Below, one piece after another: positions 13,582 through 22,083 of a stretch of DNA of 33,124 bases. The DNA comes from Myxococcales bacterium. Its GTDB lineage: Bacteria; Myxococcota_A; UBA9160; UBA4427. A program made the translations under genes and the position numbers. The stretch covers positions 1 through 33,124 of the forward strand of contig JADFNE010000050.1 in NCBI GenBank assembly GCA_022563535.1. Reading direction: 5' to 3'. Numbering within the stretch: position 1 is the stretch's first letter; each line of letters starts with the position of its first letter. The notes beneath the pieces are model-generated. The model was not told the DNA's origin, did no database searches, and saw only the letters and a list, made by a program, of their open reading frames with translations.

Positions 13582-16500
13582 GTGAGTAGAGCGGTGGGCA
13601 GAGCGGGAAGACTGGCGGGAATTTGGATCGCACTTTCGTGCGCGGTTGCCACGGAATCGGCGTTGGCGGATTGCGTGGAAGATCCAATTGTTATGGGAGA
13701 AAGAACGACTGTTACCTGCACGGATACCTCGACAGCGTATGAACCGTCTGTCTTCGAAACGGATGACATCGACCTGACTGTAGAAACGTCAAGCGACACG
13801 GTGGAGGCGGAGACGGGGGACGCCCAGGCCATTCTCCTCAACGCGGGCAGCACCATCACGAACAATGGCGACATCACTGCGACAATAGACGCTGGCCAGA
13901 ACGCCATCGTGATCGGTGATGATGCGACCATCATCAATAACAATTCAATCACGGGTGACCAGAGCGCCATCGTGATCGGCAATAACGCAACCATCACCAA
14001 CAGCGGCACGATCACGGGTGGCTCGGACGCAATTGTCTTTACAGGAACGGATTCGACCGCCATCAACACCGTTGAAAACTTGAGCGGCGGAGTGATCACA
14101 ACCGCCGCGGGCGCTGCGATCGTAGGCAGCGTTGGCACCGAAAACATCAACCTTCGAGACGGATCAACCGTTACCGGCGACATCAATCTGTTCGGCGCTG
14201 CGGACGTGGTTACGATCGAAAGCGGCGCGACCGTGAATGGAAACATCGATCTCGGAGACGGTGATGATCAGCTGATTCTCGAAGATGGCGCCGATACTAC
14301 CGGGAACGTTCAAGCTGGAAACGGCAACGATACAATCACATTGAGAGGAAGTAGCGGCGGAGGTTCGACGCTGCACGGAGACATCGATCTCGGCGACAGC
14401 GAAGTTCCCACGGGCGCGGGCGAGCGAAACGCGTTGATTCTAGAGGAAGGGTCCTTCCTCGACGGCAGCGTGACGGGTGGCGCCAACGACGACTTTGTCG
14501 ATGTTGGCACTGATGCAACCATTGGGGGCGATATCGATCTCTTGGGTGGTTCGGATGAGCTCACCATCAGCAGCGGCGCGATGGTGAATGGAAATGTCAG
14601 TCTCGACGGCGCGAACAGCACCATCACGAACGACGGCAGCATCACTGCGACAGTCTCTACCCATAACGCCATCGAGATCGGCGACAACGCAACCATCACC
14701 AACAGCGGCACGATCACGGGCGGCTCGGACGCGGCGGGTTCTGCGATCGTCTTTACGGGGACGGATATTGGCGCCATCAACACCGTCGAAAACTTGAGCG
14801 GCGGTCTGATCACGACTGACGCGGGCGCTGCGATCGTAGGCAGCGTAGCGATAGAAGAAATTACGCTTCGCGATGGGTCGACCGTGACGGGCGATATCAA
14901 TTTAATGGATGGCGCGGACGTGCTCACCATCGACCGTGGCGCGGTATTGATTGGAAACATTGATCTCGGCCCCGGTAGCGATGCTCTGTTTTTCGAGTCT
15001 GGCGCTATTTACACCGGGTCCATAACGACTGGAAGCAGTGGCGACACACGCGACAGAGTGATTCTGAGGGGAGGGTTTGTTGGTCTCGGTTCGACGGTTA
15101 ACGGAGATATCCAACTCGGCGTAAGTGATCTATCTCAGGGCGCAGGAGAGGAAAACCTGTTGGGGCTACAAATAGGATCCCTCCTCGTAGGTAACGTGAC
15201 TGGCGGTTCCGCTGACGACTCGATCGAAATTGGTTCTGATGCTCAGATCATGGGTGCAATCAGCCTTGGCAACGGAACGAATGACGTGCTGATTTCCAAT
15301 CGCGGGGTCCTGCTGGGTAACCTCACCGCGGGCGACGGCATGGATACGGTCATCATCACCTCTGACGCGTTAGTGACCGGTGATATCGATTTGGGTGCAG
15401 GAGACGACGTTCTCGAACTCTTCATCAACTCAACCGTCGACGGTTCAATCATGCTGGGCGATGGCGAAGATACGCTCGACTACGATCCCGGGGTTAGCGT
15501 GACCGGGAACATCAACCTCGGCAACGACAACGACACGTTGCTCCTCAGACCTTCGGCCGTCATTCCGTCACTGGACGCCGGCCCCGGCAGCGACACCCTA
15601 CACCTGGGTGCAGACCCGGTCGGCGCGGCGACGGTGGGAAGCATCGATCTATTTGACGCGGACCAATTCGAGGTGCTCGTAGTCGGTCCCGCTGATTTCA
15701 ATGATGCTTTTGTTTGGAGGGTATCGACCAGTTCCCCGACCGTATTTGAAGACGGTATCGTCATGCAGACCGGAGCCTTGCTTTTTGACGGCGTGGTCGA
15801 ACTGGACGTGGAGGCTTCTGGCTTTAGCCAGCAAGCGAACTCCGTCATGGTCTTTATCGTGGGAGAGGCCGTCGTAGACAGCCAGCTGAAGCTGACTGGC
15901 GCGCTCACGCTCGACCCGACGAGTCCAGACCCAATGGATCCTTTGCAAATAGGTGCCTCAGTATTGGTGACGATCCAGGGAGTCCTCAACGAAGGCGACT
16001 ATACGCTGATCAGGGCGACCGGAGGCATTACGGGTTCTTTCGACGAAGAGATCTTGCCGACGATCGTAACCTTCTCGTTTTCGACTGCGTTCGTGGACGT
16101 CGGTATGGGTGTCGATGAGTTTGTGTTTACTGCTACGCGCATATTTACCTACGAAAGTTTCGCGCGCTCAGCCAGCGAGCGAAACACCGGGCAGTATTTG
16201 GACGACGCGCGGCTGAACGCCGACATGACTTTCCTTGACGGGGTCATCTCTCCCCTCGATTTGCTGCCAGCCAACCAACTCACAACCGCCCTCGCTCAAC
16301 TCCACGCCGAAAGCTACGACGCACACACGAGCAACATTCTCTCCTGGGGCCGAGTGCAGCAGCAAGAACTCCAGCAGCGCTCCATGCGTTGCGAGCGTTT
16401 TCAGTACGCGCCGCTTCCCAATGTCGTCACCGAAGACCCCTGCGGTTCGGGTGGCTTCATGCCCTGGGCCAAAGTGATTGGCAATTTCGGTCAGAACAGC

Positions 16501-17307
16501 CTCAGTTTCGACAGAGGCTACGATTCAATCGCCGTTGGCGCGCTCGTCGGCGTCGATTATAAGTGGAATGAGAACCTCTGGATCAGCGGGAGCATGGGCT
16601 ACGGCACGATTGAAATCGATCACGACGGCGGCGCTGACAGCAGCTTCAAAAGTGTTGACCTGGGTATCGCTGTGGGCACCGTCCGCGGACCCTTGAGTGT
16701 TCGAGGTTCCTTCAGTTACAGCCACGGCTTCCACGACATCGACCGGGACGTTGATTTTCGCGCTGCCAGGCTCGAGGGCCAGTACGACAGCGATCGTATC
16801 AGTCTCGCCCTGGGTGCCGGTTATCGTTTCAAGGTCGGTCCGATCGTGATTGAGCCGAACGCCTCGATCGACTATTCGCACGTCGAAGAAGAGGCCGTGA
16901 AGGAGAAGGGCAACGCCGAAATCGCGCTCGATCTCAAGGCTCGCCAGACCGACATTGTCAGCGGGACTGCCGGGTTGCGGTTCAGCGCCAACATCCTGAA
17001 GTATCGCTACGTCGGCGAACTGCTCGAGTGGGCGGATGGTCTGTGGATGCCAAGCGTAACTGCGCAGTGGCGACAGGCCTTTGTCGGTTTCGACCGGAAC
17101 TTCAGCGCCCGGATGCAGGGCGCCCCGTCCGGCGCGGGCAGCTTCAAGTCCAAGGCGAGTGACGCGAGCGGCGGCGTGGAAGTCGGAGCCCACCTCGGCT
17201 TTCAGCCGATGAAATCTGCGAACACGATCGAGTTCGGCTACGACGGTTTCTTTGGCGGCGATGTCACGAACCACTCGGCGAACGTGTCGGTGCGCATTCC
17301 CTTTTAA
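13582..17307 (+). CDS. Autotransporter with 21-residue repeat passenger
   Basis: 1241 residues. The GTG start at 13582 is supported by AAAGGAAAG 8 bases upstream and a signal peptide ending ESALA/DC near residue 29. Residues about 83-680 are a solenoid of 21-residue repeats with consensus [AS]xVxGxIxLGxGxDxLxLxxG. Earlier rungs read xAIVIGxxATITNSGTITG. A linker follows (about 680-900), with an NLDA-type helix region (QLTTALAQLHAESYDAH). The C-terminal autotransporter beta-domain spans about 955-1241, starting at GFMPWAKVIGNFG and ending VSVRIPF with terminal Phe. Known mechanism: Sec export, barrel insertion, then passenger display. The role is probably adhesion or a surface layer (inference); no protease or lipase motif is visible. 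An internal duplication of about 0.75 kb is present. Confidence 0.92.
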   Translation: MSRAVGRAGRLAGIWIALSCAVATESALADCVEDPIVMGERTTVTCTDTSTAYEPSVFETDDIDLTVETSSDTVEAETGDAQAILLNAGSTITNNGDITATIDAGQNAIVIGDDATIINNNSITGDQSAIVIGNNATITNSGTITGGSDAIVFTGTDSTAINTVENLSGGVITTAAGAAIVGSVGTENINLRDGSTVTGDINLFGAADVVTIESGATVNGNIDLGDGDDQLILEDGADTTGNVQAGNGNDTITLRGSSGGGSTLHGDIDLGDSEVPTGAGERNALILEEGSFLDGSVTGGANDDFVDVGTDATIGGDIDLLGGSDELTISSGAMVNGNVSLDGANSTITNDGSITATVSTHNAIEIGDNATITNSGTITGGSDAAGSAIVFTGTDIGAINTVENLSGGLITTDAGAAIVGSVAIEEITLRDGSTVTGDINLMDGADVLTIDRGAVLIGNIDLGPGSDALFFESGAIYTGSITTGSSGDTRDRVILRGGFVGLGSTVNGDIQLGVSDLSQGAGEENLLGLQIGSLLVGNVTGGSADDSIEIGSDAQIMGAISLGNGTNDVLISNRGVLLGNLTAGDGMDTVIITSDALVTGDIDLGAGDDVLELFINSTVDGSIMLGDGEDTLDYDPGVSVTGNINLGNDNDTLLLRPSAVIPSLDAGPGSDTLHLGADPVGAATVGSIDLFDADQFEVLVVGPADFNDAFVWRVSTSSPTVFEDGIVMQTGALLFDGVVELDVEASGFSQQANSVMVFIVGEAVVDSQLKLTGALTLDPTSPDPMDPLQIGASVLVTIQGVLNEGDYTLIRATGGITGSFDEEILPTIVTFSFSTAFVDVGMGVDEFVFTATRIFTYESFARSASERNTGQYLDDARLNADMTFLDGVISPLDLLPANQLTTALAQLHAESYDAHTSNILSWGRVQQQELQQRSMRCERFQYAPLPNVVTEDPCGSGGFMPWAKVIGNFGQNSLSFDRGYDSIAVGALVGVDYKWNENLWISGSMGYGTIEIDHDGGADSSFKSVDLGIAVGTVRGPLSVRGSFSYSHGFHDIDRDVDFRAARLEGQYDSDRISLALGAGYRFKVGPIVIEPNASIDYSHVEEEAVKEKGNAEIALDLKARQTDIVSGTAGLRFSANILKYRYVGELLEWADGLWMPSVTAQWRQAFVGFDRNFSARMQGAPSGAGSFKSKASDASGGVEVGAHLGFQPMKSANTIEFGYDGFFGGDVTNHSANVSVRIPF
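13828..15620 (+). repeat. Array of 63-bp (21-residue) repeats in the autotransporter passenger
   Basis: About 25 units, diverged at DNA level but clear in protein. Examples: ATVNGNIDLGDGDDQLILEDG, ALVTGDIDLGAGDDVLELFIN and STVDGSIMLGDGEDTLDYDPG. Some units carry insertions of up to eight residues. The GDGxDxLxL turns resemble calcium-binding RTX nonapeptides but recur every 21 residues rather than nine. Two neighbouring units (13903 and 13966) still share a near-identical opening at exactly 63 bases offset. Confidence 0.8.
13849..15340 (+). repeat. Tandem segmental duplication of about 0.75 kb within the passenger
   Basis: Copy 1 starts at 13849 (AGCACCATCACGAAC) and copy 2 at 14617 with the same bases. 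Homology runs through AIVFTGTD, INTVENLSGG, GAAIVGSV, LRDGSTVTGDINL and an unusual TGAGE/QGAGE insertion unit in both. The offset changes from 768 to 702 to 714 bases because of small in-frame indels. The copies are diverged, so the event is not recent. Confidence 0.8.
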
Positions 17308-17347: not shown

Positions 17348-18034
17348 CTATTTCTCGAGGGCTTCTTGCGACACCCAGCCCTGCTTCACGAAGAACAAAC
17401 CGAGATCATCTGCGATTGCATCCGCCATGCGGATCGCATCCTGGGTGACGGGTCCCTTCACTTCGCCCACCACCCCCACAGCCCCCGAAGCTACTGCGAC
17501 TGCCTGGGCCCCCATCCCGACCGGCAGTATGATGCCCGGTTTCTTGCTCCCTTTTGACACTGCGCGGAAGTCGAACAGGAGTTGCTTGTTCGGATTGTCG
17601 GCCCTCGCTCGCAGGACCTGAACTTGAGCCACCATCTCGGTAGACCCGATACCGAAGCCGATGACGTTGCGCGTAAACCGGTTGCCCTTGTCGATGCTGA
17701 CGAACCTGCCCTCGACCATGATCTCATTGGGATTGGGTTTGATGTCGTGTCCAACACGTCTCGCCATGAACCCCATGCTGCGGAGTCGGCTGACGAGTTG
17801 CTCGGCGAGCGCATCCCGCGATTCATGAAAGAGTTCCTGCTGTTCCCTGCGATCGTCGGCCTTGACCTGGGGGAGATCCGAACGAAAGTCGTAGACCAAA
17901 ACTCGCGAGGGTCGCGACATCGTCTCCCCGCTCGTGAACGTTCGCTTTCCCTGCAAGGCTGAAGAGGCACAACCCATCATCAGACTGAGAAAGGCGAGGG
18001 AGATCACAACTCGGACCAGTTCTGGTGATTTCAT
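17348..18034 (-). CDS. DUF4410-type lipoprotein
   Basis: 228 residues. The signal sequence ends in the lipobox SLMMGC with Cys22, so it is a lipoprotein; no Asp follows at +2 (Ala23), which favours outer-membrane sorting. GGAG precedes the ATG by 8 bases. The domain has PSRVLVYDF near the start, then a helix LAEQLVSRLRSMGFMARRV, and EIMVEGRFVSIDKGNRFTRNVIGFGIGSTEM, characteristic of DUF4410. The function of the family is unknown. It is on the same strand and 55 bases downstream of the symporter fusion gene, and convergent with the autotransporter gene. Confidence 0.82.
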   Translation of the reverse strand: MKSPELVRVVISLAFLSLMMGCASSALQGKRTFTSGETMSRPSRVLVYDFRSDLPQVKADDRREQQELFHESRDALAEQLVSRLRSMGFMARRVGHDIKPNPNEIMVEGRFVSIDKGNRFTRNVIGFGIGSTEMVAQVQVLRARADNPNKQLLFDFRAVSKGSKKPGIILPVGMGAQAVAVASGAVGVVGEVKGPVTQDAIRMADAIADDLGLFFVKQGWVSQEALEK

Positions 18035-18089: not shown

Positions 18090-20246
18090 TCAATCCACCC
18101 ACCCCAACACATTGCGAATCATACTCCACCGCTTGCCACGTTTATCCGCGGATTTGCCCAGGATCCAGTGGTCGTAGAGTTGTTCGTCGAACGGGCCCGC
18201 CTGGATTACTCCCAGCCACTGGCTGATAATCCCCTCCAACTCAGTGTTGTTCAGTGCCATCGGATAGCCCGTCGGAACCCGGAAGAGAGGACGTATTAGC
18301 ACCCTGCTGAAATTAGGATAGAGCAGCGTCCATGCCGAGCCGGACTCCGCCGCCCACACCATGCCGTCTGCTTCTTTACCGCCCGATTCCAGGTACTCGC
18401 GCAGCGACCCTAAAGTGGTGAATTCGGCGCCGGGAAGTAGCGTCGACGCAATCATGCTGGCGTCGTCTGAGCGTGCCGTCGCCAAGGTGATGCCCGTGAA
18501 ATCATGTCTATCCATCATGCGAGAGATTTCTTCCCGGCGATGGTCGGGCACAATCAATGCGGCGGTGACTGTAGAGATCGACCTGGAGAATCTCATCTGA
18601 GTGAGTCGCGAGGGGAACATCGTAATGCCCGACATCGCAATATCAAAATCGCCGCGGTCCAGTTGTTCGCTGAGCGTTGCAAACGTGAAGGGAACGAATT
18701 CGAGCTGGCATTGGAATTGCCGTGCGAGATGGTTAGCCATGTCGATGTCGTAGCCCACCAGCTCGTCCCGAGCATTGAAGAAACTATAGGGGAGATTGTC
18801 CGGGTGATATCCAACCCTCAGCACCCCCCCGTTCGTGATGCGTTGCAATGACGATTCGGTTCCGTCTAATGGAGGTGGGACTACGCGATGGACGACCGCT
18901 GGGTAAGGGTCCGTTGCGCCATGCATGTTTTGAATTATCTGGTCCCGGGTGTACTCGGTGTCGAGTGAACTGGCGAGATAAGTTCGGGTGCCGATTGTCG
19001 CCACCGTGAAGATCCCAGCGATGAGCAACAGGGACCGTATCAGCTGTGGGGTACGGAGACGGAGATTGCCGCTGAGCGCGCAGGCCGTGAGGACCGAAAC
19101 AAAGAAGATATGGATGGCACCCAGCAGATCACCCAGCCGACCGGTGACGACGCCCGATGCGATAAATAGCTGAATCATGTCGGCGGGAAGCCGGAACATA
19201 TCCAGGAGGAAGGGGATGGCGACCATGGGGCTGCCGAAGAGGCTGAAAAGCCCGGCGCCGAGGAAGCTCGGGTACTGGCTCAGCCGCAGTGGCTCATCCA
19301 CGAACCAGGCCGTGAAGGGGATGAAGAGCAACGCCAGGAGCTTGCCAGCATGCGGAAAAGGATAGGCGAGCGGTGTGACGGCGCGAACGTACGTAGACGC
19401 ATCGTCCGGCTCCCGGAGGCGCTGTTTGAACAGCTCTTCGGCGCTACTGGCCAGCATGGGCAGAACGATGAAGACTTTCGCAGTAATGAATGCAGTCAGC
19501 ACTGCGGTCCGAGAAGCCCTGAACAGCTCGCCATATGAAAACGGAGTCAGCGCAGCGAGCAGCACCAGAAGTACCCCATATGCCAGTACCAGCGCGGCCA
19601 CGGTATTGATGACGAGATAAGCCTCTAGCCGGTTCAACTCATCCAGATGAATCGTACCCGCGAGGCTGGCGACAATGGCGAATACGCCCAGAGGCGTAAG
19701 TCTTACTAGCTGGCGATTGATGGTGGCGAGGGCATCGGTCAGGAAGTCGAGCTGCTTTAGTGCTTCTCCCTTTTCCTCGAGTGCCATGATGGCAAGCCCG
19801 ATCGCCGTACAAAAGAGAACTACTGCTGGGACGACATTGTTTGCCAGCGCATAGAACGGGTTGGACGGGATGAATAGCCGCACGAAGTCAATGGTCGCGG
19901 CTTCCTCGAGTTGACTCGAGCTGAAGAAAGACGCCGATAGCCGTTCCGGGAGCATCTGGGACAGCAACGTAATGGTGCCGAGGGCGAGGAGCAGAGAGAG
20001 CAACAGAAACCCGCCGGCGTAGACCCCAAACCGCTTGCCCTCGCTGGGCGACAGGCGCCCAATGTTCGCAACGAGGGCGATCGTAATGTACGGGAGTACC
20101 GTCATCTGAAGCAGCGCGATATATGCTTCCCCAACGACGGACAGCGCGGCGGCGTACTCTCCGAGAAAGAGTCCGCACGCCACGCCCAACACGAGTCCCG
20201 CCAGGATCAAGTTCGAGAGGCTGATTCGTTTCAATTGAGATTTCAT
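18090..20246 (-). CDS. Fusion of a dicarboxylate/amino-acid:cation symporter-like domain with a periplasmic solute-binding domain
   Basis: 718 residues. Residues 10-392 carry the DAACS (SDF/GltPh-like) layout: early helices, PSNPFYALANNVVPAVVLFC, LTPLGVFAIVAS, two hairpin-like regions and a last helix near 371-392. An additional hydrophobic helix (402-426) follows. Residues about 465-700 form an SBP_bac_3-type amino-acid-binding domain: GVLRVGYHPDNLPYSFFN, VGYDIDMANHLA, FDIAMSGITMFPSR with Arg547 where the family binds the ligand carboxylate, and ADGMVWAAESG with Glu634 near the usual Asp. The extra helix would put this domain in the periplasm. The usual DAACS transport motifs (serine-rich HP1, NMDGT, HP2 GIPGGG) are replaced. 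There is no clear Shine-Dalgarno before the ATG. Function: binding-protein-dependent uptake or sensing (inference). Confidence 0.85.
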   Translation of the reverse strand: MKSQLKRISLSNLILAGLVLGVACGLFLGEYAAALSVVGEAYIALLQMTVLPYITIALVANIGRLSPSEGKRFGVYAGGFLLLSLLLALGTITLLSQMLPERLSASFFSSSQLEEAATIDFVRLFIPSNPFYALANNVVPAVVLFCTAIGLAIMALEEKGEALKQLDFLTDALATINRQLVRLTPLGVFAIVASLAGTIHLDELNRLEAYLVINTVAALVLAYGVLLVLLAALTPFSYGELFRASRTAVLTAFITAKVFIVLPMLASSAEELFKQRLREPDDASTYVRAVTPLAYPFPHAGKLLALLFIPFTAWFVDEPLRLSQYPSFLGAGLFSLFGSPMVAIPFLLDMFRLPADMIQLFIASGVVTGRLGDLLGAIHIFFVSVLTACALSGNLRLRTPQLIRSLLLIAGIFTVATIGTRTYLASSLDTEYTRDQIIQNMHGATDPYPAVVHRVVPPPLDGTESSLQRITNGGVLRVGYHPDNLPYSFFNARDELVGYDIDMANHLARQFQCQLEFVPFTFATLSEQLDRGDFDIAMSGITMFPSRLTQMRFSRSISTVTAALIVPDHRREEISRMMDRHDFTGITLATARSDDASMIASTLLPGAEFTTLGSLREYLESGGKEADGMVWAAESGSAWTLLYPNFSRVLIRPLFRVPTGYPMALNNTELEGIISQWLGVIQAGPFDEQLYDHWILGKSADKRGKRWSMIRNVLGWVD

Positions 20247-20278: not shown

Positions 20279-20791
20279 TCAGTTGACGGAGTAATCACGT
20301 CCCTCGAGACAGGTCTTCCGCGCACGATCATAGGTGGAGCGCTGCTCTGCAATCTTGGCTTGATGTGCGGCGGCAGTAGCGGCCGCTTGATTGTCGAGCT
20401 GCTTCTGAGCCGCTTGTTGATCGCGCTGCGCATCTACTTTTTGCCGCCGGCCGCGGATCCCGCCTGCAGCAGCACCGACCGCAGCGCCTTTGCCGGCATC
20501 ACCCAGAATTGCGCCCACCGCTGCCCCACCGAGAGCCCCGCGCGCTGCCCCACGAACCGCGCCGCCCTGCTTGGACGGTGGTGTCGCGGCGGCGACTTGC
20601 GGAGTTGCATCGGGGGCCTTGGGTGGATTCATCGGGTCGAAGCCGGTCTGCCCGACGGCCCATTTGTGGCACTCGTATTTGTCTTTGTCCTGCTGTTCGG
20701 CGCTTTGGCCCTTTTTGGGATACAGAAATTCTTCGGCTAGAGATGTTTGGGACCATAAGAGTATTACGACCAGGATGCTGATGATTCGCAT
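20279..20791 (-). CDS. Glycine-zipper exported protein (YMGG-like)
   Basis: 170 residues. The signal peptide ends TSLA/EE (residues 1-19) and GGAGG lies 8 bases before the ATG. A Pro-rich region (54-72) leads into a glycine-zipper segment (about 76-113: GGAVRGAARGALGG, GAILGDAGKGAAVGAAAGG) that can insert into or span a membrane as paired helices. It is followed by a basic GRRQK and a Gln/Ala-rich coiled stretch. Two cysteines (Cys41 and one near the C-terminus, KTCLEG) could pair. Such proteins are often outer-membrane or periplasmic structural proteins; the exact role is unknown. It lies 32 bases upstream of the symporter fusion gene and is probably co-transcribed. Confidence 0.75.
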   Translation of the reverse strand: MRIISILVVILLWSQTSLAEEFLYPKKGQSAEQQDKDKYECHKWAVGQTGFDPMNPPKAPDATPQVAAATPPSKQGGAVRGAARGALGGAAVGAILGDAGKGAAVGAAAGGIRGRRQKVDAQRDQQAAQKQLDNQAAATAAAHQAKIAEQRSTYDRARKTCLEGRDYSVN

Positions 20792-20965: not shown

Positions 20966-21742
20966 CTACCTGGCCAGCTCCGACAGGCTCACTTTTTTCG
21001 CGCCCTCGCTGGCTTTCTGATCGAATTGAGATGGGTCGTGGGCGAACTGCACGTTCCATTGGTCGATTGAGGCCCGAACTGTGAGGCCGCCGGGCTCGGA
21101 CTTGTAGTGGATCACCAGTCGACGAGGTAGCGGTTGCTCGCCGGCATCGATCCAGATCTGCCAGTCCACATCTTCATTGCGAAACGCAAGATGATGGCAA
21201 CGTGCAGAGCCGAGCTTTACCTCGCCGACATACCGCGCAGATTCGATCCGTGGCCGCAATACGCGCCAGAGATTGCTGTAGACCAGATTCGCGAGCGGGG
21301 GCCGCACTCCGAGTTCCATGATGAGCAGATCGATGACATCATCGAGACTTCCGGGAGAATCAATTTCTGCAAATTCAGCTCCAGAATTGCGCGATGCGGC
21401 CACCTTCCTGGCGTTGGCGGTGAAGAGCAACGAATCGCCGGAGTTGTGCTCGATTTCCACTCGGATTCGATCGGGTCGGCGCACATAAAAGTTCCGTACC
21501 GAACCATGCTCGATCACCTGGCCAGACGCATCAATGCGGTCCTCCAGCATTGTGGCGCGAAAGTGATAGCTCTCGAGTTTGGCGATGAACTCGGCGCTTC
21601 GCTTCATTTCCGCGAGTGCTCGGGTATTGATTTTGCCCGGTTCTTCCGCCGAGGCCGTGCTACCGAGCGACATCAGCATGTAACCAAGGATCGGGATCCA
21701 TACTCTCCACTTAACGACGCTCACCGCCATCTCTCTACTCAT
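20966..21742 (-). CDS. DUF2092-like exported protein
   Basis: 258 residues from the ATG at 21742, chosen because it overlaps the stop of the upstream gene as ATGA (21739-21742). The signal peptide ends SLGSTASA/EE near residue 32. The mature part has MKRSAEFIAKLESYHFRATM, then VRNFYVRRPDRIRVEIE and a C-terminal beta-rich half with DWQIWIDAGEQPLPRRLVIHYK. This arrangement matches DUF2092 and resembles the LolA/LolB-like half-barrel fold that binds lipoprotein acyl chains. Lipid or lipoprotein binding in the periplasm is inference. The 174 bases downstream hold no gene, only short imperfect repeats such as two GAACATG copies. Confidence 0.75.
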   Translation of the reverse strand: MSREMAVSVVKWRVWIPILGYMLMSLGSTASAEEPGKINTRALAEMKRSAEFIAKLESYHFRATMLEDRIDASGQVIEHGSVRNFYVRRPDRIRVEIEHNSGDSLLFTANARKVAASRNSGAEFAEIDSPGSLDDVIDLLIMELGVRPPLANLVYSNLWRVLRPRIESARYVGEVKLGSARCHHLAFRNEDVDWQIWIDAGEQPLPRRLVIHYKSEPGGLTVRASIDQWNVQFAHDPSQFDQKASEGAKKVSLSELAR

Positions 21743-22083
21743 TGAACACACGAGCGGATGTAGTCCATGACCAGTTCATCGGCAGCACGCATGCTGACCC
21801 GCATCCCCTGATCACAGGTGTCGTCGAGATCCTCGCTCAGTCGGCGAAGAGAGCGTTCCATGCAGCGCGCAATTCGATTGCGGTTGATATTCCAGCTCTT
21901 GGCTTTACCCGAATTGAGCTTGCGATCCACGTCGTCGAGAAGCGCGTTGTAGCGTTCATCGTCATAGAGTTCGGTCCACTCGCGACACCCCAGGGCCGAC
22001 ACCTGGGCGGGAAGTGCAAATACGCTTAGCGCTGCCACCAGCATCGCGAACACAAGCACCGGTCTTGTCTCCATCATGAGCAT
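21739..22083 (-). CDS. Small exported four-cysteine protein, unknown
   Basis: 114 residues from the ATG at 22083, supported by AAAGGAG 8 bases upstream; longer versions would begin in low-quality sequence. The signal peptide runs to about ALPAQVSA/LG (residue 31). The mature part of about 83 residues is helical and charged, with four cysteines (LGCREW, ARCMER, DTCDQG, RSCVQ), suggesting two disulphides. No family is recognised. Its stop overlaps the start of the DUF2092-like gene by four bases, so the two are translated together. Confidence 0.65.
   Translation of the reverse strand: MLMMETRPVLVFAMLVAALSVFALPAQVSALGCREWTELYDDERYNALLDDVDRKLNSGKAKSWNINRNRIARCMERSLRRLSEDLDDTCDQGMRVSMRAADELVMDYIRSCVQ

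Follow-up and report, generated by a model that had tools for sequence, protein, structure and literature searches.

An open reading frame in the window, i.e., the 33,124-nucleotide stretch of a Myxococcales genome analyzed here, raises the question of what is done by a protein in which a secondary transporter fold and a periplasmic binding protein share one polypeptide. An earlier note, made from the DNA alone, described the protein as an elevator-type symporter of the DAACS type that is fused to its own substrate-binding protein (SBP) domain via a ninth helix, and proposed a TRAP-like tethered system or a membrane receptor. We find that the protein represents a widespread fusion family, probably of binding-protein-dependent importers or receptors of a kind not yet described.

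The frame (18090-20246, minus strand) starts with ATG and encodes 718 residues, as read from the sequence and its translation (Table 1). In a Pfam scan of this protein, only two domains exceeded the cut-offs, SDF at residues 12-368 (E 3.3e-43; 148.6 bits versus a cut-off of 27.9) and SBP_bac_3 at residues 476-695 (E 2.5e-22; 79.5 bits versus 26.4). The protein was modeled as a monomer with AlphaFold using 18 sequences (pLDDT 82, pTM 0.73) and 53 sequences (pLDDT 85.9, pTM 0.76). The model consists of helices and hairpins up to residue 391, i.e., TM1 to TM6, HP1, a TM7 broken at residues 295-299, HP2 and TM8, followed by the extra helix, a linker modeled with reasonable confidence, a two-lobed alpha/beta domain at residues 466-695 and a tail containing a short helix at residues 709-713. 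Thus, the single-frame architecture described in the earlier note is borne out, and the borders it gave (10-392 for the membrane domain, 402-426 for the ninth helix and 465-700 for the binding domain) differ from ours by a few residues at most. Among the matches listed in a fold search of the PDB, no chain spans both domains (best TMq 0.46), which falls short of proving that none exists.

Table 1. Features of the fusion gene, with coordinates in the window.
Feature	Residues	Coordinates	Strand	Basis and remarks
Whole gene: DAACS-fold membrane domain, TM9, SBP_bac_3 domain and conserved tail	718 aa plus stop	18090..20246	-	
SDF/DAACS-fold domain (TM1-TM8, HP1, HP2)	8-393	19068..20225	-	Pfam SDF; VIA-align
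HP1 hairpin	238-276	19419..19535	-	Alignments, AlphaFold model; T-G-(S/N/K) replaces the serine-rich tip
TM7 unwound region	295-302	19341..19364	-	Alignments; YPFPHAGK where NMDGT is expected
HP2 hairpin	322-350	19197..19283	-	Alignment, AlphaFold model; tip ~6 residues shorter than canonical
TM8	357-391	19074..19178	-	Alignments; lacks the D394/R397/N401/D405 pattern; family-conserved R370, and D356 just before the helix
Ninth transmembrane helix	399-427	18966..19052	-	AlphaFold model; hydrophobic in 97/97; preceded by a positive loop
Periplasmic linker (predicted)	428-465	18852..18965	-	Alignment, AlphaFold model; 37-58 aa in the family, mostly 40-41
SBP_bac_3 (type II periplasmic binding protein) domain	466-697	18156..18851	-	Pfam; PDB profile; Foldseek
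Conserved C-terminal tail	698-718	18093..18155	-	Family alignment; consensus pRWSvirDVLGWv[DE]

The architecture is not confined to this contig. With one genome scanned per species, at least 466 places were judged to be relatives of the fusion protein. The best 80 of these at least 466 align with it over almost its entire length (32-45% identity) and span at least ten phyla, with hits in Pseudomonadota, Planctomycetota, Myxococcota, Thermodesulfobacteriota, Bacteroidota, Cyanobacteriota, Acidobacteriota, Verrucomicrobiota, Nitrospirota, Gemmatimonadota and Krumholzibacteriota, all of which we take to be diderm. The fusion is present in 19 of 284 sampled genomes from the phylum of the window and in the cultured genera Marinobacter, Shewanella, Flammeovirga and Pseudoalteromonas. 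Both domains were detected by Pfam in 53 of 53 relatives scanned, and all 97 aligned members possess both domains and the hydrophobic ninth helix. A chance fusion, a frameshift or an assembly artefact is ruled out by these 97 relatives, which form one length class. Two loci for which the wrong frame had been assigned were either corrected or left out.

The two halves also behave as one unit. In ten genomes, matches to the SDF half with ≥290 bits were all fused frames of ≥620 aa, plus one copy cut by a contig end, and the remaining matches, at ≤119 bits, were ordinary DAACS proteins of 400-540 aa and small fragments; no match fell between 119 and 290 bits. A profile search with the SBP half gave the same picture. 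A split version with the halves as separate genes was not found in these ten genomes, and truncated family matches were contig-end copies or broken copies, so that the family is not one of homologs ending before residue 430 with the binding domain always encoded separately, as the earlier note had allowed. In phylogenetic trees, the fused SDF halves form one clade relative to canonical DAACS proteins (SH-aLRT 100), the fused SBP halves form one clade relative to free-standing SBPs (SH-aLRT 92), and pairwise distances of the two halves are correlated (Spearman 0.61; maximum of 1000 permutations 0.32). As one old fusion would be expected to give such a pattern, the simplest reading of the sequences is that the halves were joined once and descended jointly. 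The large number of phyla points to some horizontal transfer.

Additional copies were observed in individual genomes. The genome of the window contains a partial paralogue near the edge of contig C86 (L002, 1471-2391; 43% over residues 7-293), which is probably another full fusion that was cut short in the assembly. Shewanella electrodiphila (G092; L082, C1 41633-47605) has two tandem fusion genes ~3.8 kb apart. In a Xenococcaceae genome (G098, contig 355, 3560-7641), an intact fusion lies beside a second copy that is split into several frames and is a probable tandem pseudogene. A search of phage records gave no record with 80% query coverage, and among the matches listed only the SBP part was covered.

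In DAACS proteins, the end of TM8 lies in the cytoplasm. The ninth helix is strongly hydrophobic in 97 of 97 members, and the mean net charge per 10 residues is +2.1 in the TM8-TM9 loop, +2.1 at the N-terminus and −0.5 in the stretch following TM9; the canonical outside loops have a net negative charge. Altogether, the cytoplasmic TM8 end expected from the match to the DAACS fold, the ninth helix and the charge bias predict that the chain is led outward and that the binding domain is periplasmic, in line with the topology suggested in the earlier note.

The membrane domain retains the DAACS fold but not its motifs. Using VIA-align, the model superimposes on an ancestral aspartate transporter (9bgy) with Z 43.6 and an rmsd of 2.9 Å over 376 residues and on GltPh, ASCT2 and EAATs with Z 36-41, and both hairpins as well as the TM7 break are present. 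However, even the best-matching prokaryotic DAACS structures are covered by the family profile no further than profile residue 275-342, as the functional core has changed. The Na1/Na3 sites of GltPh involve N310 and D312 of TM7 together with N401 and D405 of TM8, while aspartate is held by T314, R397, D394, N401 and HP1 serines, and the outer gate is formed by HP2 (PMC4900748, PMC5110648). In a gapless profile alignment, NMDGT of TM7 is replaced by FPxxGK, with G313 kept: N310 becomes P298 (Pro in 92 of 97 members), D312 becomes A300 at a position where Asp is not among the common residues of the 97 members, and T314 becomes K302 (60 K, 20 T and 9 R among 97). D394, R397, N401, D405 and the serine-rich HP1 tip are kept in the 8-9 canonical relatives that were aligned with 16 fused members. 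In the fused members, by contrast, S279 of HP1 is lost in 16 of 16 and, in a TM8 register that is uncertain, R397 is a gap and D405 is hydrophobic in all, N401 is H, Y or N, and D394 is mostly T, V or S. The shortening of the HP2 tip was read from the 16 fused versus nine canonical sequences. The Na3 residues of TM3 were left out of the motif comparison because their mapping is unreliable. W314, F337, P345, D356 and R370 are new near-invariant residues across the 97 fused members. Conservation is lower in the transport core than in the scaffold of the fused family (0.40 versus 0.50), while the opposite holds for canonical DAACS proteins (0.50 versus 0.42); because the canonical set is small, this shift is supporting evidence only, and it fits either a multi-substrate family or lost transport.

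These replacements bear directly on the most conventional reading, i.e., that the protein is an ordinary Na+- or H+-coupled dicarboxylate or amino-acid symporter to which the SBP domain is accessory. The overall SDF fold and the Pfam score agree with this reading, and RefSeq already names homologs "cation:dicarboxylase symporter family transporter." Nevertheless, NMDGT, the HP1 serines, the HP2 tip and the D/R/N/D residues of TM8 are replaced family-wide, and the SBP domain was never lost among the members examined. We, therefore, consider an ordinary symporter very improbable and the current name probably misleading. Likewise, while the earlier note correctly saw a DAACS-like fold, its label "symporter" does not follow from that fold; with a core that lacks the Na+ and aspartate side chains of DAACS proteins and with a short HP2 gate, this function is not inheritable from the family name. 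Although DAACS by descent, the membrane part fails the DAACS motifs tested and should, therefore, be classified as a divergent family with the DAACS fold and not as a DAACS symporter, and coupling to Na+ via the classical Na1/Na3 side chains appears unlikely.

For the binding domain, the nearest solved relative found with the family profile in the PDB is AncCDT-1 (E 8e-57), with other amino-acid-binding proteins also near, and Foldseek gave a TMt of 0.89 to 5t0w. Because the AncCDT series and CDT are the best PDB matches, the SBP-type domain might be an enzyme, e.g., cyclohexadienyl-dehydratase-like, that feeds its product to the transporter. This idea is hardly credible: AncCDT-1, the closest match, is a non-enzymatic arginine binder (PMC7683729), and the general acid Glu173 of CDT would correspond, in a gapless register set by eye, to S635 at a position with 33 A, 13 S and 11 E among 97 members. 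In the register read from PDB-profile alignments, the position of the Arg expected to contact the alpha-carboxylate (R547) is kept in 67 of 97 members, and the position of the alpha-amino Asp (632) is S, T or A in most of the 97, next to the nearly invariant pair A633 (92 of 97) and E634 (91 of 97). With the Arg position kept and the Asp seemingly replaced, a carboxylate appears more likely as ligand than a plain alpha-amino acid. Beyond this domain, the tail (RWS..R.VLGW) is conserved as well as any part of the protein and is nearly invariant across phyla (R706 in 94, W707 in 95, S708 in 89 and W716 in 87 of 97 members); it may serve in docking or at the membrane surface.

We suggest a model, to which we give about an even chance, whereby the protein is a one-polypeptide importer of the elevator type that depends on its SBP domain, takes up an anionic solute and makes no use of the canonical Na+ sites. 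The membrane domain would trimerize as DAACS proteins do, and each trimer would then have three tethered Venus-flytrap domains. The tethered SBP domain would capture a solute, probably a carboxylate, and the loaded domain would dock on its own or a neighboring transport domain above the shortened HP2 outer gate and release the ligand into a remodeled pocket. In this pocket, the anion could be held by K302 (T314 of GltPh), by the His that corresponds to N401 and by R370; because the TM8 mapping is uncertain, this assignment is tentative. Subsequently, the transport domain would move inward as an elevator, with coupling to protons, to another ion or to none. The importer model is favored by the architecture, the joint descent and the predicted periplasmic SBP domain, computed as one inherited unit, and there is a precedent for linking an SBP to an elevator symporter (PMC12344293). 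Several points count against it. First, judged from the alignments, the aspartate/Na1/Na3 side chains of GltPh (N310, D312, T314, R397, N401 and D405) are mostly replaced. Second, the shift of conservation from core to scaffold would also fit loss of transport. Third, amino-acid SBPs usually have an Asp that binds the alpha-amino group, and this residue appears to be missing here. A more far-reaching proposal, in which the SBP took over the outer gate and the ligand/ion site of the DAACS fold to give an elevator without the three-Na+ machinery whose transport or gating is under the command of the tethered flytrap, is conceivable but somewhat doubtful; the family would then join TRAP, TTT and TAXI-GltS as another SBP-dependent family of secondary transporters, or it would be a ligand-gated receptor with an elevator fold.

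The loss of canonical ligand and ion residues and the move of conservation to the scaffold also fit the main rival, a receptor or transceptor in which a DAACS fold that no longer transports serves as a trimeric anchor and relays SBP closure to a partner protein. The canonical DAACS gene directly upstream of the fusion in one Flammeovirga (L056) could encode such a partner, and neither a signaling domain nor a signaling neighbor would be needed if the partner were encoded elsewhere. However, a cytoplasmic output domain was found by Pfam in 0 of 53 members, no kinase, cyclase or chemotaxis gene recurs as a neighbor among the family loci, and near-invariant residues remain in TM7, HP2 and TM8, i.e., P298 and G301 in addition to the five listed above. 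No universal neighbor gene emerged, and the upstream neighbors lie on the "+" strand in 35 and the "-" strand in 29 cases, i.e., co-directional genes are hardly in excess. Because there is no soluble signaling domain, no universal neighbor and near-equal strand use, the protein seems self-contained, and we regard a receptor as unlikely.

The shortened HP2 gate and the lost coupling residues would also suit an SBP-gated anion or solute channel, in which closure of the SBP domain would open a route for conduction through the DAACS fold by a logic like that of ionotropic glutamate receptors. GltPh has an uncoupled chloride conductance (PMC4900748). Moreover, GluR0-like proteins, as described in a 2010 survey, are channels gated by SBP_bac_3-type domains, with this domain and membrane helices on one chain as here, but they hold a K+-channel pore, unlike the fusion family (PMC2950845). 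Pfam found no channel family in the 53 members, and we consider a channel improbable.

Compared with DAACS/SLC1 proteins (GltPh, GltTk, DctA and EAATs; PF00375), the fusion family has the scaffold, HP1/HP2 and the broken TM7 in common, and differs by the ninth helix and the fused SBP in addition to the replaced NMDGT, HP1 serines, HP2 tip and TM8 ligand/ion residues. Substrate-binding-domain-fused ABC importers of the GlnPQ and OpuA type also tether an SBP-type domain to their own membrane transporter; here, by contrast, there is no ATPase, and an elevator fold replaces the ABC permease. TRAP transporters (TC 2.A.56) resemble the fusion family in the proposed logic of an extracytoplasmic binding protein serving an elevator-type secondary transporter, but their membrane fold is unrelated (DASS-like, PMC12344293), as are their SBP families, and here one polypeptide carries a C-terminal SBP. 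In 53 of 53 members, SDF and SBP_bac_3 were the only domains found (Pfam, E 1e-4), and DctM/DctQ, DctP, TAXI and GltS domains were found in none. The TRAP comparison of the earlier note thus holds for the working principle but is no longer the only one because in TAXI-GltS, put forward as a new class in 2025, an SBP is already paired with a second, unrelated elevator transporter (PMC12344293). By working principle, TAXI-GltS is the closest system, with an SBP joined to a non-TRAP elevator symporter, gene fusions included; GltS belongs to the ESS family, the SBP is of the TAXI type and N-terminal in the fusions, and about 14 fusions are described, mostly in Lachnospiraceae (PMC12344293). The family described here has a DAACS fold and was found only as fusions, in at least ten diderm phyla. 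Lachnospiraceae are a monoderm family; as the hosts here are diderm, unlike those of the TAXI-GltS fusions, the tether is not explained by the lack of a periplasm. TRAP, TTT and TAXI-GltS are functional analogues, and the fusion family belongs to none of them.

In the 2010 survey, the legend to Figure 6 has the Na:dicarboxylate symporter domain among the domains that co-occur with SBP_bac_3 (PMC2950845); in open full-text papers, and in the passages found in that survey, we found no description of the SDF plus SBP_bac_3 architecture beyond this legend. The question has been asked why elevator transporters alone seem to recruit binding proteins, which further SBP-dependent secondary families would allow to be tested (PMC12344293). 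The fusion family is such a candidate, found only as fusions, on the best-studied elevator fold and in cultured genera. If our reading is true, a DAACS ion-coupling core can be remodeled without loss of the fold.

An operon partner was considered and rejected, as associations are local only and co-directional neighbors are hardly in excess. Among these local associations, a DUF1028 gene lies 42-84 bases upstream on the same strand at five clustered loci from Gamma- and Alphaproteobacteria (L072, L085, L088, L092 and L102), four of which were confirmed by Pfam among the scanned neighbors. A DUF3124 protein is encoded near the fusion at L104 (5074-5703), with similar ORFs at L091 and L111, i.e., at three unrelated loci. 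In two Flammeovirga (L056, 4599-5840; L054, 4646-5851), the fusion is preceded by a separate SDF gene at a distance of 150-160 bases; in that of L056, NMAGN replaces NMDGT, and the TM8 motif is kept. In the window, genes for a DUF4410 protein (17348-18034), a glycine-zipper protein (20279-20791) and a DUF2092 protein (20966-21751) flank the fusion on the same minus strand, and the four are possibly one transcript. A scan for promoters and terminators gave signals at the level of shuffled sequence, and barring one DUF2092 and two Gly-zipper cases, these neighbors are not conserved beside relatives. On the plus strand, positions 13582-17307 encode a 1241-aa autotransporter with a beta-domain at residues 962-1212 and a long repetitive passenger region.
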